From Ilex aquifolium (taxonomy: Eukaryota; Streptophyta; Magnoliopsida; Aquifoliales; Aquifoliaceae), in the NCBI GenBank assembly GCA_951799425.1, contig OX637405.1:20743089-20807088 (forward strand): 64,000 nt of DNA, read 5' to 3'. Positions 15,876-62,931 of this stretch are shown here, piece after piece. Every line of letters begins with the position of its first letter. Positions within the stretch are counted from its first letter, which is position 1. Below the pieces are notes generated by a model. It was not told the DNA's origin. It searched no databases and worked only from the letters and a program-made list of their open reading frames with translations. Position numbers and translations under genes: made by a program.

Positions 15876-16675
15876 TGTGATGATCTGATCCCGAAAAAGA
15901 AATGAATTGTTAAAAATTAGAGGGATCTAATTATGATTATTAAAACTCTAATAATTAATGTAAATTGGAGGGACTAAAACAAATAACTAGAAAAATATCT
16001 TGGGAAGAAAGTGAAGTCAAAAAAAAAAAAAAAAAAACTTAAAGGATTCAATGCTCAAGTGTCCATTAAATATTAGTCCATTGATGCCATGATGTAAGCT
16101 AAACATGTCAACATGCATATGTGTGTGTCTTGCATCATCACCCAAGGAACATTTGGCTATAAAAAGGCAGCAGTAATTCAAAATGGAGGAAAGAAAGAAA
16201 AGAGAGAAAAAAGAAGGGAGAAAAAAGAAAAGAAAAGAAAAAAATAATGAGGTTTTTGGGTTCAAAGTTGGATGGTGATTTTAGTCTCGAATTTTATGAA
16301 ATTGAAATATGTTGTTCTTAATACGGTAGTGATCAAATTTATCAGAATCCCTTGGTGATTTGAGGTACATGATAGTATACAATATGCTTTTTTCTTTAAT
16401 TTTTTTTTGCAAAGAGTATCATTTTGATCATCTGAAATTTTTATTCCTATTGATTATTTTCTGTTTATATGAAATTTTATAAATTTTGTTGATATGACCT
16501 GTATTTTGGGCTAAATACTTTGATATTGATTGATACATGTACAGAGTGTGCTTGGAACATAGTATTTTTGAAATATGATTGTGGCGCTGCGAGGTGTGAT
16601 TATTCGGTTTCATTATAACCCTTCAGGGTGTGAATTGTTTGATATGAGTATGAATTTACATGCTCAAGTGTCACT
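15876..16675 (+). repeat. Element A 5' LTR, first part
   Basis: Aligns with 43473 onward in the 3' LTR (shared GAAAAAGAAATGAATTG, then TTAGAGGGATCTAATTA). Broken at TCACT by element B. Confidence 0.85.
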
Positions 16676-18761
16676 TGTGAGACCCGAACTTGCAAATGCA
16701 TAACATTTATTAAATGTTAGGGTCTAGTATGTAATTTATGATAATTAATCTGGGGTTAAATTATAGTAATTGAAATTATGGGTATTGCATTATATTTTTA
16801 AAAAATCAACCCTGGGGGTTGATTTATTTGATGACAGAATGTTTTGAGTTAAACTATTCGGTGGCAAACAGATTTTGGGTGTAACTTATAAATGATTATA
16901 ACTTATGTGGATGTTATAAGAAGTAGGGGAAACAAAGGGGGATCTAAGTGGAATTTAGGAGTTTTGGGTGTGTAAATAAAGACAATTGTCACTTTTTGGC
17001 CAACCTTTGCCTATATATACATATACATATATATATGTGTGTGTGTGTGTGTAGGTGTGTGTATGTGTGTTTAACGTTAAGATTCAGAGAGAAGAAGAAA
17101 AAGGGAAAAGAAATAAAGAAGAGAGAGGGAGATGAGTTAGCCAGATTTTTGTGTTCAGGTTGTTTTTGGTGTTGGGTTGAAGAACTGGTGGGTATGGAGA
17201 AGAAGTTCCTCCCAGTAGGTAAATCCTTTCCTTTTAATTTATATATTTTGTGATTTATTGTGGTTATTAGGAAGAGTTTGATGTAAGAGTTGTAATTTTG
17301 ATTGTATGGGGGAGAGGTTTCGGTTTCGATTTCGATTTTTGGAATTTTATTATTGGGTAAGAATTTGTATGTAAATAATGTTTAGAGTGGATGCGTTAGG
17401 GTTTGAGGGTGCTAAAGTTGAAAGAAGTAGGTTAAGGAAGAAGATGGAACAAAGAAGGGTTTCTGTTAGACTTTTACCGGTAGAAAGTGGTGTTCTACCA
17501 GTAGAACGACATTCTATGAGGTGATCTACCGGTAGAACGATATTCTGTGAAGTGTTCTACCCGTTGGAAGTAATGTTCTACTGGTAAGAACATGAAATTT
17601 CCAGCATTATGCATGGCATTCTAGTGGGTTCAAATTAACTTTAGTCGATTTTAATTACCTAAAAATACCTCGATAAACCTACGGGTTTGAGTACACTATA
17701 GTAAAGGAAAGGGGGTATTGGGAAGGTATCGGGTTTAGTCGATTCATCATTTATGCATGTGTAGGATTCATCATTGAGGCAACAACGTCAGTGTTGGATT
17801 CACTTAAAACTACACTGGGAGACTGAATCCAGGTTTGGATTTAACCCGAGGTGAGTGTATTGATTCATATTTATTGAAATTGTGATTATATGTTTATTGG
17901 TCATACTTATGTGAAATAGTTGGAAAATAATTTGGTAGGGTATGAATTATGAAATGGTGATTGTTTGTTACCAACTATATTTATTTGTAATGGTTAAATG
18001 GTGACTTAATGGTTTAAGAATTGTGAATTTGTGTTGGGTGAATTGATTGTGGATGCTTACCAATATGAGGTTGTCGAGACTACTAGACATAAACGATAGC
18101 GATATAATAGTTGAGACTGCCGAGCCTAAATGGTAGCAATGGGACTGTTGAGGCTGCTGGGCAAAAACAGTAACAATATAATTGCCGAGACTCTCGGGCG
18201 AAAATGGGTAGCGTTAACTGTTATTGGATATTGGATATTGGATATTAGATGGTAGATATTGTATATTGTATATTGTTATTTGGGATGTTGGGTATTGGTA
18301 GTTGGGAATTGGATGTTAGGTATTTAATGTGACATTCATTATAAATGTGTATGTGAGATATGATTATAATTGTTTAATGTTTATGCATTTTCTTTTAATA
18401 TGTCTCAAATATACTCACATAGCATGTGGTTTGCTCACTCCCCAATAGTTGTTTGTTTTCAGGTTCTTGAAATTTAGGAGATGGTCCACTGAACAATCTA
18501 GTTTGACATGGAGGAGTTGACATCAGTTTGTACCATTTTTCATTTGTTGTTTGTATATGTGTAGTAAAGTCACTTAAGGGTATGGTGCCTTAGTTGTTGT
18601 AACACTGCGTTGAGTGGTATATTTACATGAGAAAATATTTATTGGGCGGATAAGTTTGATTAAGGAAGCATAGGTTATATTACTGTGGTTTAAATAATGA
18701 TTTAAGGATTAAAATGATAAGATTAACCACACCCTAACTCTTTTTCGGATGGGGTGTGACA
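16676..18761 (+). repeat. Element B 5' LTR (2086 bp)
   Basis: Contains a (TA)n/(TG)n stretch near 17010-17070, the palindrome cluster at 17474-17590, and about four degenerate 38-45-bp tandem units at 18068-18215 (GTTGTCGAGACTACTAGAC-like). Ends GGGTGTGACA. Confidence 0.88.
17474..17590. repeat. TACCGGTA palindrome cluster in LTR B (5' copy)
   Basis: Five copies of a 12-15-bp near-palindrome: TTACCGGTAGAA, TTCTACCAGTAGAA, TCTACCGGTAGAA, TTCTACCCGTTGGAA and TTCTACTGGTAAGAA, spaced about 20-31 bp apart. Confidence 0.85.
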
Positions 18762-23794: not shown

Positions 23795-24575
23795 CACTCC
23801 CTATTCCAGTATGGGGATGAGAACATATTAAATTCAATTTTGGTAAAAAATATTTATGTAGATGAGATTGTGTATTTGCATAGAGTGACAATATCAGTTG
23901 TTGTTGTTAAATGTTGTGTATAATAATAGTTATCAGACGAGTGTTAGTATATTTATATGAGATTTTTATGGTAAATGATTATGCAAAATGTGTGTGAATA
24001 GTGATATCGTTTAATTTCGAGGTATGAGATATGATATGTATTTTGTTTAATCTTGGAATTTTGATATTTCGATTGAATTTCTCATTTAACATTAGTTGTT
24101 GTGATAGTTGGGTGAAATATTTGCAAAATTATTGACACATGCGTGAGACACACTAGAGATATGGTTATGGTTATGATACATGTTTGTGGCCCTAAGGGTG
24201 TATATAAACAAATGAAATACTCCGAATGATGATGTATTGTTGATATGAACCCAGGAATATTCAGGTTTATTGACATGTTCTATTTTTTTATGTTCTGTAA
24301 ATATTTGGTTAAAATAATCTTATTCAATTATTGTGGCATAGCATTTGAGTTGGGTAAATATTTATCCTATGTTGAGCAATTAACGAAAATTTTGGATTGT
24401 AAGGAAATTTTTTTGCGCACAAAGACTATTCTGTTAGTGAAAAGGTTTTGTGGTGTAGTCATTCAGTAGGAGAGGTGACATAAAGAGTGAAGAGCTTATA
24501 CGTGATCAGAAACCTTATTTGTTTACTTGTGATAAGTAAATTTTGGGGTCAAAATTTTATTTAGTGGGGGAGAGT
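23795..24575 (+). other. Element B interior, 3' part with polypurine tract
   Basis: Non-coding, decayed. It ends in the purine-rich AGTGGGGGAGAG (24563-24574) next to the 3' LTR, the expected plus-strand primer. Confidence 0.65.
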
Positions 24576-24920
24576 TGTGAGACCCGAACTTGCAAATACA
24601 TAACATTTATTAAATGTTAGGGTCTAGTGTATAATTTATGATAATTAATCTGGGGGTTAAATTATAGTAATTGGAATTTATGGGTTTGCGTTATATTTTT
24701 TTAAAAAAATAACCCTGGGGGTTGATTTATTTGATGACGGAATGTTTTGAGTTAAATTTTTTGATGGCAAAAAATTTTTGGGTGTAATTTATAAGTGATT
24801 TATGGAGGTTATAAGAAGGAGGGGAAACAAAGGGGGATCTAAGTGAAATTTAGGAGGTTTTGGTTGTGTCAACAAAGACACCCGTAAGTTTTTGTCCAAC
24901 CTCTACCTAATATATATATA
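24576..24920 (+). repeat. Element B 3' LTR, first part
   Basis: Repeats 16676 onward (TGTGAGACCCGAACTTGC). Interrupted in a TA stretch by Helitron D; continues at 40940. Confidence 0.88.
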
Positions 24921-24933
24921 CTAGAAATTGCCC

Positions 24934-25418: not shown

Positions 25419-26352
25419 TTTGTTAAATAAAACTCACCAATTAAATTGACTTGATCCGAAATGTGTACACCCAAGTGCAGGCGGTCAAGTTGTAGTAATA
25501 ATCTGGTTTGAGTCCAGAGTCGAATCCTCAGGGAACTATGGTTGGTGTTCTTTGAAGTAAATAGTGAGAAAGACTTGTAATTGGAAATATTATGATTTTG
25601 AAGTTGTGGGAAGTTTTGGATAGAATGTAAGATTCTTTCCAATGGGTATTTTGCTAGACAAAATATAAGATGATTAAATGTAACAAACACTCTTTGGTTC
25701 GGGAATCAGAATATGTAGTTGATTGTCCGGTGCATTATGTTTGTGCTTTATAACTCAATTAACTCCCGTGTCAACGGCAAATTAATCGGAAGATAGGAAT
25801 GAAGTGCAATAATTGTGGACATTGAAAGTTTGTCATGAAGAGTTAGTTAGGGTACTTGCCTTGAATCAATGGATCTTTCCATGTAGGAGTCATCCATTTA
25901 TCATAGAAAGATCCGTTGATTATACAAAGTACCTTTACTTTGCTAGGTGCATTCAATCACCCAAAAATCAAGTGGAGTATAGAACATTTAAGCATAAAGG
26001 TGATACACAAACATAATGTCTGGATTAATCTTTTACATATCTATCATCCCTTCCCAAAGAGTGAATGAGGACTACTCACCCTTCATAGCTATGGTAAAGC
26101 TAGAATGATGAATGATACTCATCCCCAAAAGGTGTTACAAAGTAAAATGCTCAAGCACTAGAAGTGAAATGCTTTAAAGTAAAATAGCTAAACAAGGAGC
26201 CGATCTTCGACAAAGAATGAGTGAATCACGTTCCACCCTTCACGGCTTTGGTAAAGCTCTAGAAAAGTGGAAGAGTTTCACTCTTATAAGGGGAAGAAGG
26301 AAGCTCCAACAATGGAAGTAAAAGAAAACAATACTTAAATTAAAAGAAAGCA

Positions 26353-26625
26353 ATAAATACTTGGTGTTTAATCCACAACCAAGAGATGATAATACATAAA
26401 AGAAAACAACAACTTCTTGGTGTTTAATCCACAACCAAGATATAATAAAAACATAAAAGAAAACAATAACTTCTTGGTGTTTAATTCACAACCAAGATAT
26501 AATAAAAACATAAAAGAAAACAATAACTTCTTGGTGTTTAATTCACAACCAAGATCTAATAAAAAGAAAACAACAACTTCTTGCTGTTTAATTCACAACC
26601 AAGATCTAATAAAAAGAAAACAACA
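26353..26625. repeat. LTR E array 1: CTTGGT...ACCAAG units
   Basis: Six tandem units of about 42-58 bp, each with CTTGGTGTTTAATTCACAAC followed by CAAG, so each unit can form a stem CTTGGT/ACCAAG. One unit is mutated (CTTGCTG at 26580). The identical array is in the other LTR at 38643-38915. Confidence 0.85.
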
Positions 26626-26789
26626 ACTCAAGAAAGTAAATAAAGCAATAATACTTGAAAGATGATTCAAGAAAAAGATTCAAGACCTTTGGAGTGTTTT
26701 CCACTAGGAAGAAATGTTCTTTACAAGAAAAATGAAACAAGAGAAGGATGCCCATTACAAGCCCCCAAGGGGGGTATTTATAGGCATCC

Positions 26790-26997
26790 AAATTACAAAT
26801 ATCCTAAAAGATATTTATCCTAAAATATATTTAATTACAAATATCCTAAAAGATATTTATCCTAAAAGATATTTAATTACAAATATCCTAAAAGATATTT
26901 ATCCTAAAAGATATTTAATTACAAATATCCTAAAAGATATTTATCCTAAAAGATATTTAATTACAAATATCCTAAAAGATATTTAATTACAAATATC
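26790..26997. repeat. LTR E array 2: AAATATCC...GATATTT units
   Basis: Tandem units built on AAATATCCTAAAAGATATTT, each a perfect stem AAATATC/GATATTT with a six-base loop, separated by AATTAC or short links. Copied at 39080-39287. Confidence 0.88.
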
Positions 26998-27262
26998 AAG
27001 AAGATCTTGATTTACACTTTGATCTCCCTTTGTTTTGAGCTTTAATAATTTACACCCTATACTTTGATAAGTTGCTCTCCATGCTTTGATAATTGGCTCC
27101 CGTCGTTTTGACGCATAAAAACCTGAAAAGAACAACATTCAATGCATTATCCTTAATTCACACATTAACCCTAATTAGATTTATTTTGACTAGTTTAACT
27201 TTATTTAATTACACAATTGACCTTTTAATTTAATTACATTTTGCATTAATTAGGGTTAATCA

Positions 27263-27285
27263 CACCCCCCAACCTAAACATTACT
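27263..27285 (-). other. Element E 3' polypurine tract
   Basis: On the minus strand GTTTAGGTTGGGGGGTG directly before the 3' LTR. Two similar purine motifs occur internally (30661-30697 and 31591-31627). Confidence 0.75.
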
Positions 27286-28762
27286 AGTCCCTAGTAATAA
27301 ATAACAGCATAACAAAATCACTTTCGTAGATAACACGATTGCATTTAGCATATACAATAAGCCGTTAAACCCCTAGGTGATTCCTAGTGGACGAGTTTTG
27401 TCTCGTGAAGGTTTTCAGTGAAGCTACCTACAAACTCCATTTGAAAAAAAATGTGTATATGCATTAGCACCATGATAGCTGAGACGCCGAATTTTTTTTT
27501 TTTTTTTTTTTAGCAAAATAAAACACTTCTCTGTCATTGGTACGTAATATATGCAAAAATAAACACTTGTTATATTGGTATTTGAAATTCCCTATGTAGT
27601 AAGAATGATCATTCTAGCAACAAGAATTGTTATATAACAAACACTCCACTTTACTACCTTCCATGGATAGCTTCGATTTCACAAACCTCTCGTAGAATGC
27701 TCTCAGCAAAAATTCACTCCGATTATAGTGACTTGTCTCTCACGGGGCATGTGATCAGAAGGTGGCCAATCGAAAAATCACATGCACAATTAGGAAGGAA
27801 GTGAAGTTTACGGAAACAAACTAATCATGTTTGGCATAATCTCATGAAAGAATATTGATGCAATTTAAAGAAATACTATTTACCATACCCCAATTTTGAT
27901 TAACAACACACACATGTAACAGACTTGAGATCAATTAGGGCTTTTCATAGGTTGTAGCGTGGCCAGAGGTCAGTGGCTAATGAAATGACGTCAGAGGTTT
28001 TCAAAAGCTATCTTTTCATTCTGTAATGTAGCACACTTCTTTCTAGCTTTTCGACATTTTGCCCAGAAATGATTTTTTTTTTTTTTTTTTTTTTCATTTG
28101 TTCCCATTGATTCTCCTTATCATCGAAAAGTAATCTCCACAGTTTTCCCATTTCTTTGCATTTCTGTGTCATATTGATTAATAAGAGTGTGCAAGAAAAT
28201 TAGATAGCAATGGTGTGTCCAGTATGTTTTCTTGTGGCTTGGTAAATATTTGGGTTTATCAAAGAAGAAATCATACATTGAGGGCTCAAACATGGCTGAC
28301 TAGGGAAATAATTTTGCAGAAAAAATGGCTAAGGCTCAATATCAAATCAAAGATGGCCTAAAATCCTTTCTCAAGTATGTGAACATGTATGTGTCGTATG
28401 AACAGATTTCTTGGGGATATGTCAACAGATTACCTTAGTTGCGTCAATCAAAGCAAATTTAATGAGATTATTCAAAAATAGAGAATGAAAGACCTTACTT
28501 GAATAAATGTTAATTATCTCTCAAAAGTATGGTAAGGCTCAAAACTTACCATGGTATTCTTTATCATCTCTACTGGTAATGTCAGGTTTTTCATGGAATG
28601 TCGGTTATATACCGATTCTATTTTTGAGTCTGGTCATTCTGTACCTTAAGAATAACAAATAGCAATATACATTTGACATTTAAGCATAGAGAAAATACCA
28701 TTTTTCAAAGAAGTGAGTTTTTTTTTTTTTAAAAAAGAAGAAATAAAATTCAAAATTATAAA
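27286..28762 (-). other. Element E 3' untranslated region
   Basis: AT-rich, no coding frame over 60 codons. Long T runs on the + strand at about 27489-27512 and 28073-28094. Confidence 0.6.
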
Positions 28763-29025
28763 CATACTCATTTATCTATGAAAATTGAAAGAAGACTAGA
28801 TGCACCAATTAAACTTGAAAAACTATGACGTCTCAGGATAAGTCCCTACCCACACTACAGGTTGGCATTTTAGGACATTCCTTACTCAGCCCACATACTC
28901 ATTTATCTATGAAAATTGAAAGAAGATAAAATGCACAAATTGAACTTGGAAATTTATGGCGTCTCAGGATCAAATCCCTACCTACACTGTTAGTTGGTAG
29001 TTCGGGACGTTCCTTACTCGGCCCA
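28763..29025 (-). repeat. Two 131-bp tandem units holding decayed pieces of the zinc-finger gene
   Basis: The units start at 28763 and 28894 with CATACTCATTTATCTATGAA. Each contains ATGRCGTCTCAGGAT and CCTTACTCRGCCCA. These match the stretch encoding GLSKDYPDTP in the two intact zinc-finger genes (29231-29263 and 31062-31094), separated here by about 35 bases. I read them as 3' fragments of earlier copies of the cassette. Confidence 0.55.
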
Positions 29026-29139
29026 TATTTTTATTTCAACAACCAGACTTTGTACAAAAATATTTTACAAAAGAGTTCAGACCCTTAACCTTCATTCCAA
29101 AACATATTTTTCCACAGCTTTGTCTTTAATAGTCAAAAT

Positions 29140-29565
29140 CTAATCCGAGTCATTGCTTGGATCTATGTCATTATCAGTGACCCTTCCAACTTCTTGTCGC
29201 ACATAACTTGTAAGTCCTGGACTGGCATAAGATGGCGTGTCAGGATAATCCTTACTTAGCCCATACACTATCCAGTTTAATCGATCGGTTGCACGACCCG
29301 AAATTGGTTCAGAACACTGATTATGTTTTTTCATATGAAATATCCTGCCACAATGGTAACAAGCACCCAGTCGTTTGGAACGACGATGTTTAGCAAAATT
29401 GCTTCTGCCACACAATGGTTGTTGTTGTTTCTCTCGGATCTCAATTTTTCTCACATCCCTTGCTTTTCTCATTATCACAGCATGCACATCAGATGGGAAA
29501 ATGCGTAGAACTCCTAGACTAAACCAAAAAAGTTTAGGATCCATGCTTGCTAAGACTAAATACAT
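29140..29565 (-). CDS. Accessory zinc-finger protein, copy 2 (virus CRP-like), 141 aa
   Basis: The frame starts MYLVLASMDPKLFWFSLG; M8 is a second possible start that aligns with copy 1. Seen: a conserved N-terminal block, a basic region at residues 53-65 (RSNFAKHRRSKRL), then C69-x2-C72-x4-H77-x6-C84, the motif ISGRATDRLNWI, and an acidic tail. It matches copy 1 without gaps through residue 130, with about 90 identities by hand count. The layout (basic patch, then a CxxC finger, then an IS..WI..G-type block) resembles the small cysteine-rich nucleic-acid-binding proteins at the 3' end of carlavirus-type genomes, some of which suppress RNA silencing. This similarity is judged by eye. An independent CCHC finger is the alternative. 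Confidence 0.7.
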   Translation of the reverse strand: MYLVLASMDPKLFWFSLGVLRIFPSDVHAVIMRKARDVRKIEIREKQQQPLCGRSNFAKHRRSKRLGACYHCGRIFHMKKHNQCSEPISGRATDRLNWIVYGLSKDYPDTPSYASPGLTSYVRQEVGRVTDNDIDPSNDSD

Positions 29566-30101
29566 TCTATCTGGTTCTTTAACGTCTGCCAGTCACAAAG
29601 ACAGTTGAAGCTGCATCCGATGTGATCATGAAATACAGGTACAAATACTAAAAAAACGCGATCCAGAAAAAATAAAAATTTTTTTTTTTTTTTTTTTTCA
29701 GATCTAAAACTAAAATTACAAATACGAAACTAGAGAAAGTATATCAAAATACAAGCGGAAGGAAGAAGATTTAGGATGAAACAAACAAATTAACGAAGAA
29801 GGAATAAACCCAGAATACATAGGATTGAGGAGGATTATTTGGCAAATTATCAGATCTTACTGTAACAGCAATTACAACATAGTCATTGGAGGGCATAGCA
29901 AATTCACAAGGAATCTTATAAAGACAAATAGCCATGAGAATCACAAGCTGTAGATATCAAATTTCAAATATATATATAAATGAAATTACAAACAAGCAAT
30001 ACTTACAACACTAGCACTAGTGGGCTAGTGGAGATAAGGTTGTAAGGTACAGATCTGTTCATCTGCCGAAACCTACAAACAAAATACAACAATTACTCAA
30101 C
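29566..30101 (-). other. Spacer between membrane protein 2 and zinc-finger gene 2
   Basis: Non-coding. An acceptor-like TTTGTTTGTAG/G (minus strand, near 30073) precedes a block CAGATGAACAGATCT that is similar to one in the first cassette near 31680, so a leader intron is possible. A T run lies at about 29678-29698. Confidence 0.45.
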
Positions 30102-30233
30102 TCAAGGAATATCTGGGTTTCTCTGGAAACTCCTCATCCTAAGTGTGAGAACACAAAGAGCACCCAGGTACACATACAAACATATAAGACAAATTATTAA
30201 ACAAAAGACTGGATCGTCGGCGTATATGGTCAT
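30102..30233 (-). CDS. Small membrane protein, copy 2 (43 aa)
   Basis: Reads MTIYADDPVFCLIICLICLY, then a continuing hydrophobic stretch to about residue 31, then LRMRSFQRNPDIP and a stop. One transmembrane segment is clear. It aligns with the 48-residue frame of cassette 1: M-x4-D-D-P, hydrophobic helix, R/K-containing turn, N-P-D-x-P at the end. Conservation of both ends and the matching distance (about 150 bases) from a TATA-like box argue that it is a real gene. Function unknown. Single-span miniproteins of this size occur in plant-virus movement gene blocks, but I see no specific signature. Confidence 0.55.
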   Translation of the reverse strand: MTIYADDPVFCLIICLICLYVYLGALCVLTLRMRSFQRNPDIP

Positions 30234-30383
30234 GGATTTACAGGGGGTGAGTTGTTTTTACAGAGAACAGAAAGAACGACGACGAAGAAGAAGAGAAGAA
30301 AAAGAAAGAGAAGAAGAGAAGGGAAAGAGAAAAGGGGGAACCAACACCGGTGATGGTGGAAGAAAAAGAAAAAGGTGGAAGGC

Positions 30384-30393
30384 CTAATAAAGG
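30384..30393 (-). promoter_or_regulatory. TATA-like box, cassette 2
   Basis: The minus strand reads GCCTTTATTAGGCC, the counterpart of the stronger GCCTTTATAAGGC of cassette 1, followed by a long pyrimidine-rich leader. Confidence 0.45.
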
Positions 30394-30660
30394 CATTCCT
30401 CAGATTTTTTTTTTTTTTTTTTTTTAAAAAAAAAATGTCGGCAGGAGTTGGCATAAGAAAAGAAAAAGAAGAAGAAAAAGAAGAAGAAAAAGAATGGGAG
30501 GCCCCCCCCCCCTTTTTACTTTCGGCAGTGTCGACATACGCAAATCATGGCAGCAGGCACAATAATGGTGCAGGCTTGAAATTTTTTTTTTTTTTTTTTA
30601 ATGGTGCGCAGTGTCGGCAGAGTGGATATCCATGCAGAATATTCCCACAAATAATGCAAC

Positions 30661-30697
30661 CTCACCCCCTAACTTGGTTCATGCATTGTCCTCAATG
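30661..30697 (-). other. Internal purine motif 2 of element E
   Basis: Minus strand ACATTGAGGACAATG, then AAGTTAGGGGGTGAG. Resembles the GGGGACAATG...GGTTGGGGGG motif at 31591-31627 and the true 3' tract. Confidence 0.5.
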
Positions 30698-30965
30698 TAA
30701 CAAAAAGATATGATAATTAATGACGCACAATAAAAAAAAAAAATGAGTAGGGTAAGAGAACACCTTGCCCTTGAGCTTTGACCTGGCACCGATATCTGAA
30801 AATAGGAACAACAAAACTATACAACAAAAGAAAGTGACATGCATTAAAAATAACAGAGTTTGTACAGAACATAAAAAAATAACATAAAATTAAATAAAAT
30901 AAAATTTTTTACAGACTCGGACCTTCAGCTTTCATTCCCAACCTCAGTACACTTTTCCACAGAGG

Positions 30966-31397
30966 TCAATCCGATTCCCCCTCCGTATCTGTGTAAAATG
31001 GACAACCAGTAACTCTCCCAACTTCCTCTCTCACAAATCGGTTAAGCACAGTACCGGAATAGCATGGCGTATCAGGGTAATCCTTACTCAGCCCATGTTT
31101 TATCCAGTTTAATCGATCGGTTGCGCGACCGGAAATTAGTTCAGAACATTTGTTGTATCTTTTCTCATGAAAGTATCTGCCACACTGTTTACAGGCACCA
31201 AGTCGTGTAGCACGACGACGTTTAGAATAACTGCTTCGGCCACAGAGGGGTTTCGCTTGTTTTTCTTTGATTTCAGTCTTCCTTACTAATCTTGCTTTTC
31301 TCATGATCATGGTATGTACATCAGATGGAAAAGTACGTAGGACTCCTAGACTAAACCAAAAAAGATTTACATCCATGATTGCTACTCTATGACCCAT
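30966..31397 (-). CDS. Accessory zinc-finger protein, copy 1 (virus CRP-like), 143 aa
   Basis: Starts MGHRVAIMDVNLFWFSLG; M8 is a possible alternative start. Basic patch at residues 58-66 (SKRRRATRL), zinc-binding pattern C69-x2-C72-x4-H77-x6-C84, then ISGRATDRLNWI and GLSKDYPDTP, and an acidic C-terminus. Nearly all substitutions relative to copy 2 fall outside these motifs, as expected if both copies were kept for function. The spacing H-x6-C differs from the CCHC knuckle of the element's own Gag (H-x4-C), so it is not a simple Gag duplicate. The best family guess is the carlavirus-type cysteine-rich protein, expected in nucleus or cytoplasm and binding nucleic acid. Inference from pattern only. 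Confidence 0.72.
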   Translation of the reverse strand: MGHRVAIMDVNLFWFSLGVLRTFPSDVHTMIMRKARLVRKTEIKEKQAKPLCGRSSYSKRRRATRLGACKQCGRYFHEKRYNKCSELISGRATDRLNWIKHGLSKDYPDTPCYSGTVLNRFVREEVGRVTGCPFYTDTEGESD

Positions 31398-31590
31398 TAT
31401 CTGGTTCTTTTACGTCTTCCAGTCACAAAGACGATCAAAACTGACTCACAGATATTATCATTAATACAAGGTACATAATCTGAACAGATACAACAATAAA
31501 AACAAAAAAAATTTACAGAAAATTTTACGGGTTCAACCTGCGCAGATCAACTACTGTAAACTGCAGATCAACTACTGTAAACTGTAGATC

Positions 31591-31627
31591 TCACCCCCCA
31601 ACCTAGACTGAACATTGTCCCCAATGT
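31591..31627 (-). other. Internal purine motif 1 of element E
   Basis: Minus strand ACATTGGGGACAATG, then AGGTTGGGGGGTGAG. Comparable motifs lie downstream of integrase in other Athila elements. It could be an extra plus-strand primer or an RNA signal. Confidence 0.5.
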
Positions 31628-31717
31628 TTCGATTTTTTCGGTTTGTAGAGCTTGAATACGCAGTTAACTGTGGAGATCTGTTCAATCGCCGATGACCTAT
31701 ACCAAAAAAAACAGAGA

Positions 31718-31864
31718 TTAAGCATCTTTGGGGTGGTCTGGGTTTTCATTGGGACAAAAACCCTTGATCATCAGTGCGGCCCGAAGAAGAACAGCCATAA
31801 GTAAATAATACAAACAAATGTAGATCATGAGAAGGAGGATAGGGTCATCGAAAAATGCAGACAT
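31718..31864 (-). CDS. Small membrane protein, copy 1 (48 aa)
   Basis: MSAFFDDPILLLMIYICLYY, a hydrophobic helix through about residue 33, then KGFCPNENPDHPKDA. The frame is open further upstream through the pyrimidine-rich leader, but the ATG at 31864 is chosen because it aligns with copy 2 (shared D-D-P at residues 6-8 and N-P-D-x-P near the end). One membrane span, with short acidic N-terminus and polar C-terminus. It lies about 150 bases downstream of the TATA-like box at 32012-32020 and upstream of the zinc-finger gene. No known family recognised. Confidence 0.55.
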   Translation of the reverse strand: MSAFFDDPILLLMIYICLYYLLMAVLLRAALMIKGFCPNENPDHPKDA

Positions 31865-32011
31865 GGTACTGTTATGGGTTGGATCGTGGTACAGAAGACC
31901 AGATGCAGTGGAGAAGAAGAAGAAAAGAGAAGAAAAAGAAGAAGAAAAAGAAAAGAAAAGAGTAAAGGCGGTGGGGAAAAGAAAAAGGAAAAAAAAAAAA
32001 AACGATGGGAG

Positions 32012-32020
32012 CCTTATAAA
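32012..32020 (-). promoter_or_regulatory. TATA-like box overlapping the pol stop codon
   Basis: The minus strand reads CTGCCTTTATAAGGC. The TAA that ends the gag-pol frame (32014-32016) is part of the TATA box. A TC-rich leader of about 150 bases, typical of plant core promoters and 5' leaders, follows before the membrane-protein ATG. Suggests a separate internal transcript for the accessory genes. Confidence 0.5.
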
Positions 32021-35000
32021 GGCAGTCCATCGTGTCGGGTGTCTGATTGACCCGACCCTTTTTTGTGTCGGCAAGCGTAATCTCCGGAGTGATTTCCGGA
32101 GATACTTTCTGGATCCATAAAAAAAATGGTCTCCACATTTTGGACAAAATTCTCCACAAAGGGTTTTAATCGCTGACCATTGACGGTAAAAATGTTACCG
32201 TTTGATGGGTTCTCCACTTCCACTGCCCCATGTTCAAATACCTTTTTAACAATGTATGGTCCAGTCCATCTTGATTTCAACTTACCAGGAAATAGGCGAA
32301 GTCTCGAATTGAAAAGTAGAACCTTTTGATCAGGTTCAAAAGATTTTCGCACTATGTTCTTGTCATGAAAAATTTTCATCCTGGTTTTTGCAATCTTAGC
32401 ATTTTCAGATGCTTCATTTCTCAATTCCTCCAATTCATTAATCTGAAGCTTCCGTGACAGTCCAGCCTTGTCTAAGTCAAAATTCATTGCTTTAATAGCC
32501 CAGTATGCCCTATGTTCCAATTCCACAGGCAAGTGACATGGCTTTCCATAGACTAATCGATAGGGAGACATGCCCAAAATTGTTTTAAAAGCAGTTCGGT
32601 ATGCCCAGAGCGCATCAGTTAGTCTTAATGACCAATCTTTGCGATCTGGGTTCACCGTTTTTTCCAAAATTAATTTGATCTCCCGATTAGCTAACTCAGC
32701 TTGTCCACTGGTCTGTGGATGATAAGGGGTTGCAATTTTGTGAAAAATCAAGTATTTTTTCATTAAATTCCAGAAGGGACGATTGCAAAAATGAGAACCC
32801 CCATCACTTATAATGGATTTTGGAATTCCAAACCGAGATAAAATATTTTCTTTTAAAAACTTGATCACTGTTTGATGATCATTATTTCGGCATGGAATTG
32901 CTTCAACCCATTTGGATACATAGTCTACGGCTACTAAAATGTATAGATAGCCAAAGGAGGGGGGAAATGGTCCCATAAAATCGATACCCCAACAGTCAAA
33001 AATTTCGATTACCAAAATTGGGTTTAAGGGCATCATGTTTCTTTTTGAAATGTTTCCCAACCTTTGACATCTATCGCAAGTTACGCAAAAAGCATGGACA
33101 TCTTTGAAAAGTGTGGGCCAGTAAAATCCACACTGCAAGATTTTTGCAGCGGTTTTTCGAGATGAAAAATGACCACCACATGCTTCTGAATGACAAAATG
33201 TTATTACCTGTCTACTTTCCTGAGCGGGGATGCAACGTCTTATGATCTGATCCTTACAGTACTTGAATACGTAGGGATCTTCCCAAAAGAAATTGCGGAC
33301 CTCCCTCAGAAACTTCTTTTTGTCCATGGGAGTGAAAAATGGAGGAAGTGTTCCGGTAGCAAGGAAATTAGCAATATCAGCATACCATGGGGTCTCATCA
33401 ATCCTGAATAGTTGTTCATCGGGGAATTTTTCATTGATTGGCAGTCCATCCTCATGAAATTCATAAGTTAATCTCGACAGATGATCTGCCACCACATTTT
33501 CCACACCCTTTTTGTCCTTAATGACTAAATCAAATTCTTGGAGCAAGAGGATCCATCTCAAGAGCCTTGGTTTGGCATCTTTTTTTGTAAGCAAAAATTT
33601 CAGTGCTGCATGGTCAGTAAATACAGTAACAGAAGAACCAACAAGATAAGATCGAAATTTTTCCAATGCAAATACTACAGCAAGTAATTCCTTTTCAGTT
33701 GTTGAGTAATTCATTTGGGCATCATTTAAAGTTTTACTTGCATAGTAAATCACATGTGGCTTCTTATCTTTTCTTTGTCCCAAAACAGCACCTACAGCAT
33801 AGTCACTAGCATCACACATCAATTCAAAGGGTAGAGTCCAGTCAGGAGGTTGCATTATTGGGGCAGAAATTAACATGCCTTTGAGTTTGTCAAAGGATTT
33901 TTGGCACGCTTCATTCCAGTCAAAAATGACATCCTGACTCAAAAGATGACACATAGGTTTTGCTATGGTGCTGAAGTCTTTTATGAACCTTCTGTAGAAT
34001 CCTGCATGACCTAAGAATGATCGAACATCCTTCACAACCCTAGGAGCAGGAAGATTCCTTATCAAATCAATTTTTGCTTTATCAACTTTCATGCCTTCAG
34101 ACGACACAATGTGACCCAAGACAATGCCTTGATTCACCATGAAATGACATTTCTCCCAGTTAAGCACCAGATTTGCCTCTTTGCATCTCATCAAAACTTT
34201 TTCTAGGTTAACTAGACACAAATCAAATGAGTCACCATATACCGAGAAATCATCCATGAAGATTTCCAAAATTTTTTCGACCATGTCACTGAACAAGCTC
34301 AGCATACATCTTTGAAATGTTGCAGGAGCGTTACAAAGTCCGAATGACATCCTTTTGAATGCAAAAGTGCCAAATGGACATGTGAATGTGGTCTTTTCTT
34401 GGTCATTCAGAGCTATCTCAATTTGATTGTATCCGGAATACCCATCCAGGAAACAGTAAAATTCATGGCCTGCTATTCTCTCGAGGACTTGGTCAAGGAA
34501 GGGAAGAGGAAAATGGTCTTTTCTAGTCACCAGATTGAGTTTTCGATAGTCAATGCACATTCGCCATCCTGTGACGACTCGTGTTGGCACGAGTTCATTT
34601 GCATCATTTTTGACTATTGTGACTCCAGATTTCTTTGGTACAACTTGGGTTGGACTAACCCATTTGCTATCGGAGATAGGAAAAATTATCCCTGCATCCA
34701 GGAGTTTGAGCACTTCCAGTCTCACAACCTCTTTCATGTGAGGATTCGATCGTCGCTGCATTTGACGAGAGGGTTTTGAGTCCTCTTCAAGGTATATGGC
34801 ATGATTACAAATTAACGGGCTTATACCTTTCAAATCAGCGATGGTCCACCCAATGGTGCTTTTATGACTTTTAAGAACTTCAATTAATTGAGCTTCTTGC
34901 AAGTCTGTGATTTTTGAAGAAATTACCACTGGGTAAGATTTATCCTCACCTAAACATGCATACTTGAGATCAGATGGGAGCGGTTTCAGTTCAGGCTTTG

Positions 35001-37614
35001 GTGGCCTGTCACTTGAAGATAGTGGTTTTGTACCACTTGATGAAATTTCTTCAAATTTAGGAGCCCATGTCCCCACATTGAAGGTAGGGCACTCAATGGA
35101 GTTTTGTTCCAGAGAGTCAGATGAGTCAGATTTTGACAAAGTTGATTCACTAAGATCCTCACAGAATGAGTCATTCAGATGTGCTTGTATCAATGACTCA
35201 ATGGAATTTATTTCTCCTACCTCCTCGTACTCTCTTGGGTGTTTTGCAATGTCAAAGACGTTCATTTCGAGAGTCATATCCCCAAAAGTCAATTTCATAA
35301 TACCATTCCTGCAATTGATTAGTGCATTGGAGGTTGCTAGAAAAGGTCGACCAAGAATGACAGGAATTGGAGTTTCTGAATGAACTTCTGGATGAGTATC
35401 TAGAACAATGAAGTCTACAGGGAAGACAAAATTATCCACTTGGACAAGTACATCTTCAACAATACCCCTAGGAATTTTTACAGATCTATCTGCCAATTGG
35501 AGTGTGGTGCAAGTGGGTTTCAGTTCACCTAAACCCAACTGCTGGTAGACAGAGAAAGGAAGCAAGTTGACACTAGCTCCAAGGTCTAACAATGCTTGCT
35601 CAATTTTGAAATTTCCAATGACACATGACACAGTGGGACACCCTGGATCTTCGCACTTTGAAGGGATTTTGTGTTGAAGTAGGGCACTGGCTTGCTCTGT
35701 GAGGAAGGCTCTTTTTTGAACATTTTGGCTTCTTTTGACTGTGCACAAGTCTTTTAGAAACTTGGCATAAGCTGGAACCTGTTGGATTGCATCCAGAAGT
35801 GGGATGTTGATTTTTACTTGCTTGAAAAGCTCGTAAATTTCAGACTGATTGTTTGCTTTCTGTATGCTCTTGAGTCTATGAGGGAAAGGAGCAGGAATAG
35901 AACACGAGGGTTCTTCTTCCCTTGATGGCTCTGGTTCTTGTTCAATCATGGGATCACAGTCATTTTTTTTTTCAAGTTCTGGCTCACTTAATGGGTTGGC
36001 TGGAATTGAGACTGGTTTTGGGTCTGGAATCAGCATGTTTCTGATGGACTTGTCAATCTTTTTGCCACTTCTCAATGTGGTGACAGTTTTGGCTTGGTCT
36101 TGTGGAGTTTCCATAGTTGATGGATTTCCCACCTGAAATTGGCCTTGTGGAGGCTTTGGTTGGGCAGGAAATTTTCCCTTCTCATGTGTGCTCATGGACT
36201 GGGTCAGCTTTTGAATGTGGCCTTTGAGATCCTCAAAAGATTGTGTGGTCTGGGCCTTGAAATCAATAAAAGCCTGAGTAGAACTATTGTTATAGCTCAT
36301 TTGGGTTTGCATGAATTGATTCAATGTATCTTCAAGGCTCCTTTTGTGTGGTGGTTGATATGGAGGATATTGTGGAGGTACTTGAGGTGGATGTGGTGGC
36401 CCTTGTTGATGAGGATATTGTGGAGGTCCTTGAGGTGGTTGTTGTGGACCTTGTTGCTGATTCATGGGGGTTGGTTGTGTGTTTCTCCAACTGAAATTTG
36501 GGTGGTTCCGCCACCCTGGATTGTATGTTTCAGAGTATGGGTTGGAGTAAGGCTTGTTGAAATTGGAAATGGCATTTGTTTGTTCCAACAAAACTTCTTT
36601 GAATGCCGGTATGGTCGGGCATTCCCCAGTAGGATGCCCTGTTAGCGCACAAATCCCACACACTTGTTCTGTGGAAGGGACAACATCAACTTGATGGATC
36701 TTTTTCATCTCTAAAGCTTCAAGCTTTCGAGACAAAGTGGACATTTTTGCTCTAAGATCATCATCTTCTCTCAAGACATACTTACCCCCTTGGAAAGTAG
36801 GTGGTTTGGCTTCTACAGTGGTAGGAGAGGCTGAGTCCCACATTTGAGAACTGTCAGATATGGTATCAAAAAAATTGAATGCCTCCTCCGGACTTTTTCC
36901 CATGAACTCTCCTTGAGCCATCATTTCGACAAACTGTCGTAACCTAGTGGGCAAGGAATCATAAAAAAAACCTGCCAAAGTCCAATTTTCAAAAGCATGG
37001 TGTGGACAAGATTGGAGAAGATCTTTGAATCTCTCCCAGCTTTGATAAAAAGTTTCCCCTTCTTTGACCGAAAAATTCATGATTTGTCTTTTGAGTGTAT
37101 TAGTGCGGTGCAGAGGAAAGAATTTTCTGAAAAATTCATTCTGTAGAGCCTGCCAATTAGGGATTGAAAGAGATTTTAAAGAATGTAACCATTGTTTGGC
37201 TTTATCCCTCAAAGAGAAAGAAAACAATTTCATTTTTGTCAATTCAGAATTGTCTTGAAATGTTCCACACACTTCTTCGAAGTCTTTGATATGCAGATAC
37301 GGATTTTCTGCATCCAATCCATGAAACACGGGCAATAACTGCACTGTCCCCGGCTTTACAGTAAAGAGGGGAGCATTTTCAGGAAAAATAAAACAAGAGG
37401 GGACACTATTCCTTGTGGGATGTAAGTAATCTCGCAATGTTCGAATGTTGGGTACTTCCCCCTCTCTCACATGATCTTCACCCTGCCTATCAATATTTGC
37501 CATATTGAAGTTACAAGAATCGGCTTCTGATTTGGGTGAAGGTGGTTCAAGTTGATTTACAGACCCAGAAGATTCAGCAGGCAAATTTTGAAAGAGGCGA
37601 TTGGTGTCAGTCAT
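32014..37614 (-). CDS. Gag-Pol polyprotein of element E (1866 aa, Athila lineage)
   Basis: One uninterrupted frame. Gag core about residues 65-260; CCHC knuckle C319-x2-C322-x4-H327-x4-C332; a proline/glutamine-rich linker to about 425. Aspartic protease with D677-L-G-A-S. Reverse transcriptase with FMDD (D1121, D1122) in [10 protein letters not shown], typical of Athila. RNase H with D1268, E1307/1309 and D1334. Integrase with an HHCC finger (H1475, H1482, C1513, C1516) and D1545, D1604, E1640, giving the D,D-35-E spacing. No chromodomain follows. The product would assemble particles, copy the RNA and integrate the cDNA. All catalytic residues are present and nothing is frameshifted, so the element looks recently active. 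The first in-frame ATG is 97 bases from the primer site. Confidence 0.96.
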
Positions 37615-37710
37615 AAAACAAAATTATTCACAATAAGGCAAAAATATAAACAAAAAGAGAGGTTTTTTTTTTTTTTTTTTTCACTTTTTTCTAAAAAAAC
37701 ACCTTTTATG

Positions 37711-37730
37711 ATTCCCCGGCAACGGCGCCA
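37711..37730 (-). other. Element E primer-binding site (tRNA-Asp)
   Basis: Minus strand TGGCGCCGTTGCCGGGGAAT, complementary to the 3' end of plant tRNA-Asp(GUC) including CCA, six bases from the 5' LTR. Confidence 0.9.
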
Positions 37731-37736
37731 AAAACT

Positions 37737-39552
37737 TGACTTGATCCGAAATGTGTACACCCAAGTGCAGGCGGTCAAGTTGTAGTAATAATCTGGTTTG
37801 AGTCCAGAGTCGAATCCTCAGGGAACTATGGTTGGTGTTCTTTGAAGTAAATAGTGAGAAAGACTTGTAATTGGAAATATTATGATTTTGAAGTTGTGGG
37901 AAGTTTTGGATAGAATGTAAGATTCTTTCCAATGGGTATTTTGCTAGACAAAATATAAGATGATTAAATGTAACAAACACTCTTTGGTTCGGGAATCAGA
38001 ATATGTAGTTGATTGTCCGGTGCATTATGTTTGTGCTTTATAACTCAATTAACTCCCGTGTCAACGGCAAATTAATCGGAAGATAGGAATGAAGTGCAAT
38101 AATTGTGGACATTGAAAGTTTGTCATGAAGAGTTAGTTAGGGTACTTGCCTTGAATCAATGGATCTTTCCATGTAGGAGTCATCCATTTATCATAGAAAG
38201 ATCCGTTGATTATACAAAGTACCTTTACTTTGCTAGGTGCATTCAATCACCCAAAAATCAAGTGGAGTATAGAACATTTAAGCATAAAGGTGATACACAA
38301 ACATAATGTCCGGATTAATCTTTTACATATCTATCATCCCTTCCCAAAGAGTGAATGAGGACTACTCACCCTTCATAGCTATGGTAAAGCTAGAATGATG
38401 AATGATACTCATCCCCAAAAGGTGTTACAAAGTAAAATGCTCAAGCACTAGAAGTGAAATGCTTTAAAGTAAAATAGCTAAACAAGGAGCCGATCTTCGA
38501 CAAAGAATGAGTGAATCACGTTCCACCCTTCACGGCTTTGGTAAAGCTCTAGAAAAGTGGAAGAGTTTCACTCTTCTAAGGGGAAGAAGGAAGCTCCAAC
38601 AATGGAAGTAAAAGAAAACAATACTTAAATTAAAAGAAAGCAATAAATACTTGGTGTTTAATCCACAACCAAGAGATGATAATACATAAAAGAAAACAAC
38701 AACTTCTTGGTGTTTAATCCACAACCAAGATATAATAAAAACATAAAAGAAAACAATAACTTCTTGGTGTTTAATTCACAACCAAGATATAATAAAAACA
38801 TAAAAGAAAACAATAACTTCTTGGTGTTTAATTCACAACCAAGATCTAATAAAAAGAAAACAACAACTTCTTGGTGTTTAATTCACAACCAAGATCTAAT
38901 AAAAAGAAAACAACAACTCAAGAAAGTAAATAAAGCAATAATACTTGAAAGATGATTCAAGAAAAAGATTCAAGACCTTTGGAGTGTTTTCCACTAGGAA
39001 GAAATGTTCTTTACAAGAAAAATGAAACAAGAGAAGGATGCCCATTACAAGCCCCCAAGGGGGGTATTTATAGGCATCCAAATTACAAATATCCTAAAAG
39101 ATATTTATCCTAAAATATATTTAATTACAAATATCCTAAAAGATATTTATCCTAAAAGATATTTAATTACAAATATCCTAAAAGATATTTATCCTAAAAG
39201 ATATTTAATTACAAATATCCTAAAAGATATTTATCCTAAAAGATATTTAATTACAAATATCCTAAAAGATATTTAATTACAAATATCAAGAAGATCTTGA
39301 TTTACACTTTGATCTCCCTTTGTTTTGAGCTTTAATAATTTACACCCTATACTTTGATAAGTTGCTCTCCATGCTTTGATAATTGGCTCCCGTCGTTTTG
39401 ACGCATAAAAACCTGAAAAGAACAACATTCAATGCATTATCCTTAATTCACACATTAACCCTAATTAGATTTATTTTGACTAGTTTAACTTTATTTAATT
39501 ACACAATTGACCTTTTAATTTAATTACATTTTGCATTAATTAGGGTTAATCA
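37737..39552 (-). repeat. Element E 5' LTR
   Basis: 1816 bp, same length as the 3' LTR. Contains the same two inverted-repeat arrays (38643-38915 and 39080-39287). Confidence 0.95.
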
Positions 39553-39557
39553 TAAAT

Positions 39558-40583: not shown

Positions 40584-40939
40584 AGGTGAACATATTATGT
40601 GTGTGTTTAAAAGGAATGTGAGAGAGCGAGAGATAGCAGAGAGAGTGTGGCAGACAGAGAGGAAGGGGGAGAGAGAAGTATTGAGGAAATGAGAGAAATA
40701 GGTGTTGGGTGAGGTATCAGATAGTATGAGATAGGGAGAGAGAGTTAGATGAAAGATATGAGTCTTAGAGTTAGGGAGAGAGAGTTGTATCAGTTAGTAT
40801 GAGATCGCGAGAGAGAGTTAGATGAGAGATAGGAGCCTTAGAAAAATTTTACACGAGGACCATCGGATCAATAATCTTCTTAAACGATCTGAGCCACGAA
40901 AAGTTTAAGATAAACAATCTAGCTACTTTATTATATAGA
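39558..40939 (-). other. Helitron D body, right part
   Basis: Non-coding. Holds three 29-bp units TATGAATAAAGGTTTAGTAT + TGTGGCTTG at about 40014-40100 and an (AG)n microsatellite at 40549-40582, with further AG-rich sequence to about 40830. Confidence 0.6.
40549..40582. repeat. (AG)n microsatellite
   Basis: Seventeen AG units inside Helitron D. Confidence 0.9.
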
Positions 40940-42732
40940 TATGTATGTGTATGTGTGTGTAGGGGGTGTGTGTTTAACGTTAAGCTTCAAAGAGAAAAAG
41001 AGAAGGGGAAAAGAAATATAGAAGACAGAGAGAGAGGCGTTAGCTAGGTTTTTGTGTTCAGGTTGTTTTTGGTGTTAGGTTGAAGAACTGGTGGGTATGG
41101 AGAAGAAGTTCCTCCTAGTAGGTAAATCCTTTCCTTTTAATTTATATGTTTTGAGATTTATTGTTCTTATTGGGAAGAGTTTGATGTAAGGGTTGTAATT
41201 TTGGTTGTGTAGGGGAGAGGTTTCAGCTTCAATTTTTATTTTCAGAATTTGATTATTGGGTAAGAATTTGTATGTAAATAACGTTTATAGTGGATGTGTA
41301 AGGGTTTGAGGGTGTTAAAGTTGAAAGAAGTAGGTTGAGGAAGAAGATAGAACGAAGAAGGGTTTCTGCCAGCCTTCTACCAGTAGGAAATGGTGTTCTA
41401 CCAGTAGAATGACATTCTGTGAGGTGTTCTACCGATAGAAAGTGATGCTTTATTGGTAGAACGACCTTCTGTGAGGTGTTCTACTTGTAGAAAGTAATGT
41501 TTTACAGGTAGGAACATAAAATTTCCATCATTATGCCATATTGTCTCTAATTGTTTAACCACTCAACTTCAAGGTTTTCCTAGGCATTCTAGTGGGTTCA
41601 AATTAACTTTATTGATTTTAATTACCTATAAATATCTCGATAAACCTACGACTTTGAGTACATTATAGTAAAGGAAAGAGACTATTTGGAAGGTATCGGG
41701 TTAAGTCGATTAATTATTTATTCATGTGTAGCATAACAATTATGTGTTCAGAATGATATTTATGTGACTTATGACGATGTAAGTTAGGTATTGAGGCAAT
41801 GAAGTTAGTGTCAGATTCACCTAAAACTACACAGAGAGAATAAATTCGGGTTTGGATTTAACCTGAGGTGACTGTATTGATTCATATTGATTGAAATTAT
41901 GATTACATGTTTATTGGCCATACTTATGTGAAATAGCTAAAAGGTAATTTGATAAGGTATGAATTGTGAAATGGTGTTTGTTTGTTACCAGCTATATTTA
42001 TTTGTAATGGGTAGATGGTGGCTTAATGGTTTAAGGATTGTGAATTGGTGTTGGGTGTGGTTTAATTACTTGAATTGATCGTGATTGCCTACCAATATGA
42101 GGTTGTCGAGACTACTAGACATAAATGATAGTGATATAATAGTCGAGACTGCCGGGCGTAAATGGTAGCGATAGGATTGTCGAGACTGCTGGGTGAAAGC
42201 AGTAACAATATAATTGTCGAGACTCCTAGGCGAAAACGGGTAGTGTTAACTGTTATTGGATATCAGATATTGGATATTGTTATTTGGAATGTTGGTTTTG
42301 GTTGTTGGGCATTGGATGTTGGATATTTAATTTGAATTTCATTGTAAATGTGTATGTGAGATATGATTATAATTGTTTAGTGCTTAAGCATTTCCTTTTA
42401 ATATGTTACCCCCTAACAATTGTTTGTTTTCAGGTTCTTGGAATTTAGGAGATGGTCCACTTAACAGTCTAGTTTGATGTGGAGGAGTTGACATCAGTTT
42501 GTACCATCTGCCATTTTTTGTTTGTACACATGTAGTAAAGTCACTTAAGGGTATGGTGCCTTAGTTGTTGTACCACTGCGTTGAGTTGTATATTTACATG
42601 GAAAAATCTTTATTGAGTGGATAAGTTTGATTAAGGAAGCACATGTTATATTACTATGGTTTAAATAATGATTAAAGGATTAACATGATAGCATTAACCA
42701 CACCTAACTCTTTTTCGGGATGGGGTGTGACA
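40940..42732 (+). repeat. Element B 3' LTR, second part
   Basis: Resumes after Helitron D (TGTTTAACGTTAAGCTTCA matches 17070 onward) and ends GGGTGTGACA. With 24576-24920 it makes about 2138 bp. Confidence 0.88.
41374..41512. repeat. Palindrome cluster in LTR B (3' copy)
   Basis: Counterpart of 17474-17590: TTCTACCAGTAGGAA, TTCTACCAGTAGAA, TTCTACCGATAGAA, TTTATTGGTAGAA, TTCTACTTGTAGAA, TTTTACAGGTAGGAA. More diverged from a perfect palindrome than the 5' copy. Confidence 0.8.
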
Positions 42733-51092: not shown

Positions 51093-51782
51093 TCCACGTA
51101 TATCTTTTCTAATGCTCAATAATGGTCAATGAGCTTCCTCTCACGTCCATGGAGCCCCCCCTAGCTTGTGTGATGTGATCCCAATCAATAGGGGGCTGCC
51201 AAGGGATGGGTTGGACAGGCTAGTGCAGGCATAGCCTGCACACCCAGCATCTTCTCTCTCCTCTCTCCTCTCTCCTCATTAATGTCCAACACTCCAAAAG
51301 TCCAAGCATAAGTGTATGAGGGGATGTCTGTGTGTAAGGCATGTAAAGAATGAGTGGGAGAGTGCTTGGTGGGACCCCCAAAGTTGAAGAGCTTGAGATG
51401 CAGAATCTGTCCTGTCTCAGTAAAATCTACCGGTAGGTCGATGAAAACCTACCGGTAGGTTTCACTCCAGTGAGCAAAACCTATCGGTAGGTTTGCGGTA
51501 GGTGCAGGACCAATAGCTAAAACCTACCGGTAGGTTTTTCCTTATTTTGCAAAATTCTTGGTTTCTCCACCTTTTAAGCAAACATCGAGCCTCCACCTCA
51601 TCTCTAATCGACTCAAGCATCATGATAGGGCCTAATAAGCATCATCTGAACACCATTTTGCGCAAAACATAACAAAACTCCATTAAAAGCTTGAACAATG
51701 CAATTCCACTCATTTTAACCGCAAAATCCAATGTAAAAGGGATGTAAATGCACATAAAATATGCAATATTTTGTGCTAATCA
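50086..51782 (-). repeat. Element F 5' LTR
   Basis: On the minus strand TGATTAGCACAAAATATTGC...CATCAAGCA, about 1697 bp. Contains a (CT)n/(TA)n microsatellite at 51046-51092 and the palindrome cluster at 51426-51538. The matching 3' LTR in the same orientation is not in the window. Confidence 0.78.
51426..51538. repeat. TACCGGTA palindrome cluster in LTR F
   Basis: TCTACCGGTAGG, AAACCTACCGGTAGGTTT, AAACCTATCGGTAGGTTT, and AAACCTACCGGTAGGTTT; a half unit GCGGTAGGT lies between the last two. The full units are 18-bp palindromes. Confidence 0.88.
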
Positions 51783-51786
51783 GTCG

Positions 51787-54689: not shown

Positions 54690-54821
54690 AGTACCGGTAG
54701 CTCATTTTGACTACCGGTAGCTCGGGTACACTGGAAACTCGACTACCTGTTGACTACCGGTAGCTCGGACACACTGGACCATTGACTACCGGTAGCTGAT
54801 AGTGACTACCGGTAGTCACTA
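54690..54821. repeat. TACCGGTA palindrome cluster in LTR I (3' copy)
   Basis: Five CTACCGGTAG-type units and one CTACCTGTTG variant between short spacers containing ACACTGG. ACCGGT cores near 54693, 54713, 54757, 54788 and 54808. Confidence 0.9.
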
Positions 54822-55276
54822 TCCAAATTTTTCTATTTCCATTTCCAGTGCATTTTTGACCCATTTAGAGGTCGAATTGAAAAATTTTCATGAGATACAC
54901 TTTTGTAGCCCTAGATGTCTACTATCTACTTTCAAAATTTCAGGTCATTTGGAATTAAGAATAAAAAGTTATGTCCAAAATACTAAGAAGTATTCAATAC
55001 CCATTTTTACCCAAATTCTCGCTAAAGTGTATTTTAACTCCGGGACACTTCCTAACTTCCAATACATCCATATTACCACTCCCAATGTTTTTCGACCTTC
55101 CGGATTCAATGTAATCATTATTTTGACCTACAAACTTTTAGAAACTTGTCTAATCACCCTTTCCAAGTTTAAACATCTTCGACACGTAACTTCCCAATCA
55201 AATTGTCTCCATAGCATTTATTCCTACGGTTTATTCTTATGTCACTACATATATCTACATCTTTACAAATATTATT

Positions 55277-55279
<3 letters not shown>

Positions 55280-55336
<57 letters not shown>
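55280..55336. repeat. (TA)n microsatellite
   Basis: About 28 TA units, much shorter in the other LTR (60639-60655). Confidence 0.9.
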
Positions 55337-62717: not shown

Positions 62718-62931
62718 TTAGTGGACTAGACCATCATTCAGTTAAATTGGATCGTGGACTTTTTTCGTTCAGCCCAGCCCAACCCAATAATGATGTCTAC
62801 GTCTACAATACATGTTCTGCCAAATTAATCAGAGGAAAAACCTTCGTTTCTGTGTATCGGCCGCTGGGACTTGCAGTGGGAGCTCCTTCGATTGTGTGAG
62901 TTAAGCTTTCACTTTGTTATAGAGAGAAACG

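Follow-up and report, generated by a model that had tools for sequence, protein, structure and literature searches.

Why a holly retrotransposon should carry, twice over, a gene for a small basic zinc-finger protein of plant-virus type is the question raised by the window analyzed here, a 64,000-nt stretch of Ilex aquifolium contig OX637405.1. It has long been asked how LTR retrotransposons escape being shut down by RNA silencing, and the roles of their extra genes are largely unknown. Our best overall explanation, to which we give a probability of about 0.6, is that this Athila-type element (E) bears a duplicated, selected accessory gene related to the viral cysteine-rich nucleic-acid-binding proteins (NABP/CRP), the products of which would counter silencing.

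E is an intact 14.1-kb Ty3/gypsy (Athila-type) element on the minus strand (25447-39552), with the following parts:

25442..25446, no strand: target-site duplication TAAAT, left copy, 5 bp
25447..27262, minus strand: 3' LTR, 1816 bp, TG...CA
27263..27274, minus strand: polypurine tract GGTTGGGGGGTG, adjoining the 3' LTR
32014..37614, minus strand: uninterrupted gag-pol ORF of 1866 aa (gag, protease, RT, one RNase H, integrase)
37713..37730, minus strand: primer-binding site TGGCGCCGTTGCCGGGGA, near the 5' LTR
37737..39552, minus strand: 5' LTR, 1816 bp, TG...CA, with 3 substitutions relative to the 3' LTR
39553..39557, no strand: target-site duplication TAAAT, right copy, 5 bp

The element is complete, young, and recently inserted. 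Its primer-binding site is presumably of the tRNA-Asp type, and a Pfam scan of the 1866-aa ORF gave no match to a chromodomain or to a second (archaeal-type) RNase H. Together with the gag-pol domain set, these features fit the Athila clade, to which we assign E by its structure and primer-binding site. In the passages of PMC6317226 that define it, this clade (non-chromovirus OTA) lacks both the chromodomain and the second RNase H.

Several further repeats were noted in and around E. Each LTR contains inner tandem repeats (26334-26627 and 26749-27069 in the 3' LTR, likewise in the 5' LTR), with 57-bp units and spacings of 16, 26, and 42 bp. A hairpin-plus-polypurine motif resembling the true polypurine tract recurs inside the element on the minus strand (31592-31603 and ~30645-30700) and at 2575-2612 of a related contig described below (L001); the 12-mer GGTTGGGGGGTG itself occurs twice in the window, a count not above chance, and the inner copies resemble the tract in their flanks too. 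Positions 16675-17537 match 24575-24921 plus 40933-41440; these two segments flank E but adjoin each other near 17026, so E probably inserted into an older repeat of that family. A second gag remnant of the same kind lies at 47800-49715 (minus strand; 47% and 38% identical to the gag region of E), beside which tblastn found no NABP-like sequence. The window also holds a 2.3-kb repeat with 99% identity (52996-55311 and 58355-60670) and ~1.2-kb repeats with 90-91% identity (51782-52995 and 60689-64000).

Between the integrase and the 3' LTR, outside the polyprotein, lie the two NABP-like genes together with smaller features:

28762..29025, minus strand: pair of ~131-bp units, probably remnants of the 3' part of the NABP-like gene
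29140..29565, minus strand: NABP-like gene copy 1, 141 aa (PF05515 48.7 bits, PF01623 24.2 bits; viral-only HMM E=8.5e-17)
29573..29600, minus strand: 28-nt conserved block directly 5' of copy 1, possibly a splice or leader signal
30102..30233, minus strand: 43-aa hydrophobic ORF, unsupported as a gene
30966..31397, minus strand: NABP-like gene copy 2, 143 aa (PF05515 46.7 bits, PF01623 26.4 bits; viral-only HMM E=3.2e-17)
31403..31430, minus strand: 28-nt conserved block directly 5' of copy 2
31718..31864, minus strand: 48-aa hydrophobic ORF, unsupported as a gene

Both proteins are basic (pI 9.5 for copy 1 and 9.8 for copy 2) and share a finger C-x2-C-x4-H-x6-C starting at residue 69, preceded by an arginine/lysine-rich patch (GRSxxxKxRRxxRLGA), and a GLSKDYPDTP block at residue 102. 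The ORFs with their places, the finger, the basic patch, and the GLSKDYPDTP block are all as given in a preliminary description of this DNA, as is the gapless alignment over 130 residues, for which that description estimated about 90 identities and we counted 90 of the first 130 (91 of 134 in the part aligned from the shared methionine). The duplication of a whole cassette, likewise proposed there, is borne out at the DNA level (75% identity over 300 nt; 77% over 484 nt), and both cassettes carry a TC-rich leader and a TATA-like motif, CCTTTAT[AT]AGGC. The two units at 28762-29025, which that description does not mention, are, from their sequence, probably degenerate pieces of the 3' part of the same gene: in three of four comparisons with that part none of 300 shuffles scored as high, and in the fourth 13 of 300 did.

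We then asked what these proteins are related to. Both copies exceed the Pfam cut-offs of PF05515 (Viral_NABP, 23 bits; E about 1e-12) and PF01623 (Carla_C4, 20.9 bits), two families that occur in carla-, viti-, allexi-, mandari-, tricho-, and pruneviruses. As a yardstick, the NABP of Grapevine virus H scores 30.4 bits against PF05515 and that of Peach mosaic virus 17.9 bits, below the cut-off. When six named viral proteins were combined in one HMM, it matched exactly copies 1 and 2 among the 671 ORFs of the window, and each of the six viral sequences used singly detected both copies (E 4e-9 or better). In the reverse direction, a profile of 13 element-type proteins matched 21 of 726 candidates, including two proteins from Peach mosaic virus and one from Grapevine virus H. 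The spacing within the finger varies among viral members.

An ordinary Gag fragment or a transduced host zinc-finger gene, its viral likeness being due to chance, might be read into a weak similarity to ribosomal protein eL43 (E=0.012) and into the label ribosomal protein L37AE/L43A that one relative, P0004, carries from its source. However, no Pfam family other than the two viral ones reaches its cut-off; the remaining matches are to two zinc-finger families, one per copy, with scores far too low. The Gag knuckle C-x2-C-x4-H-x4-C is absent from the NABP-like proteins, in which six residues precede the last cysteine, and zf-CCHC gave no Pfam match to either copy at E up to 10. This origin is, in the main, refuted by the viral-only HMM (E about 1e-17), and we consider it extremely improbable. 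The matches are thus not confined to Gag or host zinc fingers, and the kinship with carlavirus-type cysteine-rich nucleic-acid-binding proteins, first suggested from the pattern of residues, holds under both Pfam and the viral-only HMM. On sequence grounds, we regard homology of the two copies to the viral NABP/CRP proteins as nearly certain.

A structure model points the same way, built from 60 sequences with viral rows in the alignment (pLDDT 73, pTM 0.40). Against a library of viral folds, plant-virus proteins took ranks 1-31 of the 50 matches listed; three of these 31 are unnamed and 28 named, and nine of the named ones bear the name RNA silencing suppressor. By taxonomy, we take 27 of the 28 to be flexivirus proteins, and rank 30 is p23 of Citrus tristeza virus. 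Given the low TM-scores to these 31 viral models (0.27-0.38, query side), the matches are better evidence of belonging to the family than of a shared fold.

The gene is not peculiar to one element. When the copy-2 protein was compared with its own genome (800 Mb), 150 of 4104 candidates were scored, and all 150 were full-length, stop-free, and 97-100% identical. A more distant homologue, P0012, revealed a second family (150 scored of 3844 candidates, 82-94% identity), in which 54 of the 150 matches contain stops by visual count and the NABP-like gene is single-copy as far as seen. By eye, an integrase lies upstream on the same strand in seven of eight E-type loci (the window's own included) and in 23 of 30 second-family loci; none was found beside the other one and seven, respectively. 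Copy 1 was within reach of the flank in six of the eight E-type loci. The order gag-RT-RH-INT-NABP was seen in all six 9.9-kb stretches, which were chosen from loci already known to hold integrase, and at further diverged places the integrase end lies upstream on the same strand in 6 of 10.

Apart from these loci, a 3.3-kb contig (DAIEQH010000041.1, L001) encodes an RNase H/integrase that is 73.6% identical to that of E across 526 residues and is interrupted by a single in-frame stop close to its start, and 204 nt past the pol stop an NABP of another type (182 aa), which is above the PF05515 cut-off and just under that of PF01623 (19.8 vs 20.9). This contig belongs to a Candidatus Nomurabacteria MAG record, which looks contaminated given that the DNA is plant-type retrotransposon DNA. 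NABPs of the L001 type are annotated as hypothetical proteins in Populus, Orobanche, Rhamnella, and Xanthoceras (at least nine named plant entries among the 120 listed of 481 matches). The preliminary picture of one element with a captured gene was therefore right in that the gene follows the integrase in E, but too narrow, as the gene is also present in the second family and in L001.

Divergence of pol and of NABP ranks alike, with the second family nearer to E and L001 farther, a parallel that fits descent of the NABP together with the element. A single clade of both plant types is neither recovered nor rejected by the protein tree (AU p=0.16). Within it, the two E paralogues fall in separate groups (support 82/83, not starred, and 97/96, starred), each of which also holds proteins from other contigs; from the tree, the paralogues seem to predate the divergence of E from related sequences. 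P0004 resembles copy 2, and the fragment P0013 has the ending of copy 1; both come from the same source with a longest contig of 2941 bases, which suggests that this source also has a tandem pair.

Selection was assessed through dN/dS, for which a value near 1 between copies had been named in the preliminary description as a refuting result. We obtained 0.21 for copy 1 versus copy 2 (p=4e-9), 0.10-0.17 for locus L014 versus ten diverged second-family copies (dS 0.64-0.85), and 0.18 and 0.23 for L014 versus two closer ones. As the ten were picked among stop-free sequences, they tell of selection on retained genes rather than on all copies. The decayed gene pieces downstream of copy 1 might suggest a passenger, i.e., a viral or other fragment carried without function, and passages of PMC3136472 place a betaflexivirus-like sequence of cucumber near retrotransposon-like sequence. 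Against this stand the dN/dS values of 0.10-0.21, by which the passenger reading is in the main refuted, and the matching location of the gene in different families as well as in L001; we give it almost no credence. The NABP-like gene has long been part of this element lineage, where purifying selection maintains it, and we are highly confident that it is a selected accessory gene of the lineage.

The same cannot be said of the other cassette members. The 43- and 48-residue membrane proteins of the preliminary description do exist as hydrophobic ORFs in both cassettes, but they do not behave as conserved genes: they have little in common (14 of 43 residues identical), give no signal of purifying selection (omega 0.66, p=0.41, with low power at 43 codons), and have no counterpart in the second family, where four of five stretches examined held only an unrelated 34-aa ORF. 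They may be by-products of T-rich DNA and not genes. The 28-nt block recurs with at most 4 substitutions at 54 of 54 loci in the same genome (L003-L056) and only twice in the window; at this tolerance it is absent from L001. Its position directly before the ORF was read in the window and in several second-family copies, and at L012 and L049 it lies inside an open frame, upstream of the likely start. Since the block contains TGGCAG preceded by a run rich in T, it may plausibly be a splice acceptor, and the NABP-like genes would probably be expressed from a spliced or internally started RNA via this block.

What, then, might the proteins do? They would act by binding small RNAs or the RNA of the element, by entering the nucleus, or both, and would there weaken host silencing, so that transcripts and copies of the element would increase. 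This proposal draws on the protein family: passages of PMC12172455 describe CRPs as silencing suppressors, and parts of PMC12786186 report that a viral suppressor raised the circular DNA of plant LTR elements (Galadriel clade). By this analogy, silencing suppression is a serious candidate for the main role of the NABP-like proteins, held tentatively and at slightly less than even odds.

Viral CRPs have more than one activity according to the same passages of PMC12172455, where p12 of Chrysanthemum virus B, of the same protein family, is described as both a weak suppressor and a transcription factor. The NABP-like proteins could likewise be nuclear regulators, entering the nucleus via the basic patch shared by both copies, binding DNA, and activating transcription of the LTR or of host genes, with suppression a minor activity. 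The nine fold matches named as silencing suppressors argue against this, and we consider it rather unlikely. Somewhat less probable again is a replication helper, in which a basic zinc-finger protein would package or chaperone element RNA as a second nucleocapsid-like protein. In favor of such a role, three second-family stretches in the same genome (L048, L051, and L054) show matches to NABP and to all or part of gag but none to pol on that strand; these are possibly a non-autonomous class retaining gag and NABP. However, the NABP-like gene sits outside the polyprotein, and the helper role is weakened by gag seeming to have its own C-x2-C-x4-H-x4-C knuckle, which was read from the translation and not matched by Pfam.

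Silencing suppression thus remains our preferred role. With an extra gene that belongs to a clear viral family with several known silencing suppressors, is selected and multicopy, and occurs in more than one plant lineage, the suppressor idea is testable by standard reporter assays. Plant transposable elements may thus be equipped with a protein against host defence, and the finding raises the matter of genes passing between retrotransposons and plus-strand RNA viruses. A wider speculation, which we think improbable, is that Athila-type elements of many flowering plants carry an RNA-silencing suppressor exchanged with flexiviruses, with retrotransposons perhaps the source for the viruses.

Compared with known systems, the closest counterparts are the viral NABP/CRP proteins themselves, which are homologous to the E proteins over the finger, basic patch, and flanks, are similar in size, and are encoded 3' of the replication genes. 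The E gene differs in sitting, being selected, and being duplicated within an LTR retrotransposon, and its activity is a prediction. VANC, reportedly an anti-silencing factor of an Arabidopsis DNA transposon, would be another case of a plant transposon with an anti-silencing protein (the role we propose in E), although it belongs to a DNA transposon and is an unrelated protein. Ty3/gypsy elements of Phalaenopsis with an AlkB-type RNA demethylase, described in parts of PMC9289625, similarly form a lineage that has gained a protein acting on RNA, presumably against control by the host; their AlkB domain is, however, close to plant demethylases rather than viral-type and confined to one genus in that screen of 121 genomes, the consulted text of which does not name NABP. 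Searches of open-access papers turned up no report of NABP genes in retrotransposons, and the large survey in PMC6317226, which applied a 250-codon minimum, would miss genes of this size. Antisense extra ORFs lack similarity to viruses and sense ones are env-like, according to passages of PMC7264820. Athila-type elements with extra ORFs (sense aORF or eORF-3'F) match E in the position and orientation of the extra gene and in having a single RNase H and no chromodomain; the extra genes covered in those parts of PMC7264820 and PMC6317226 are env-like or Athila ORF-1 and none is an NABP, whereas that of E is.
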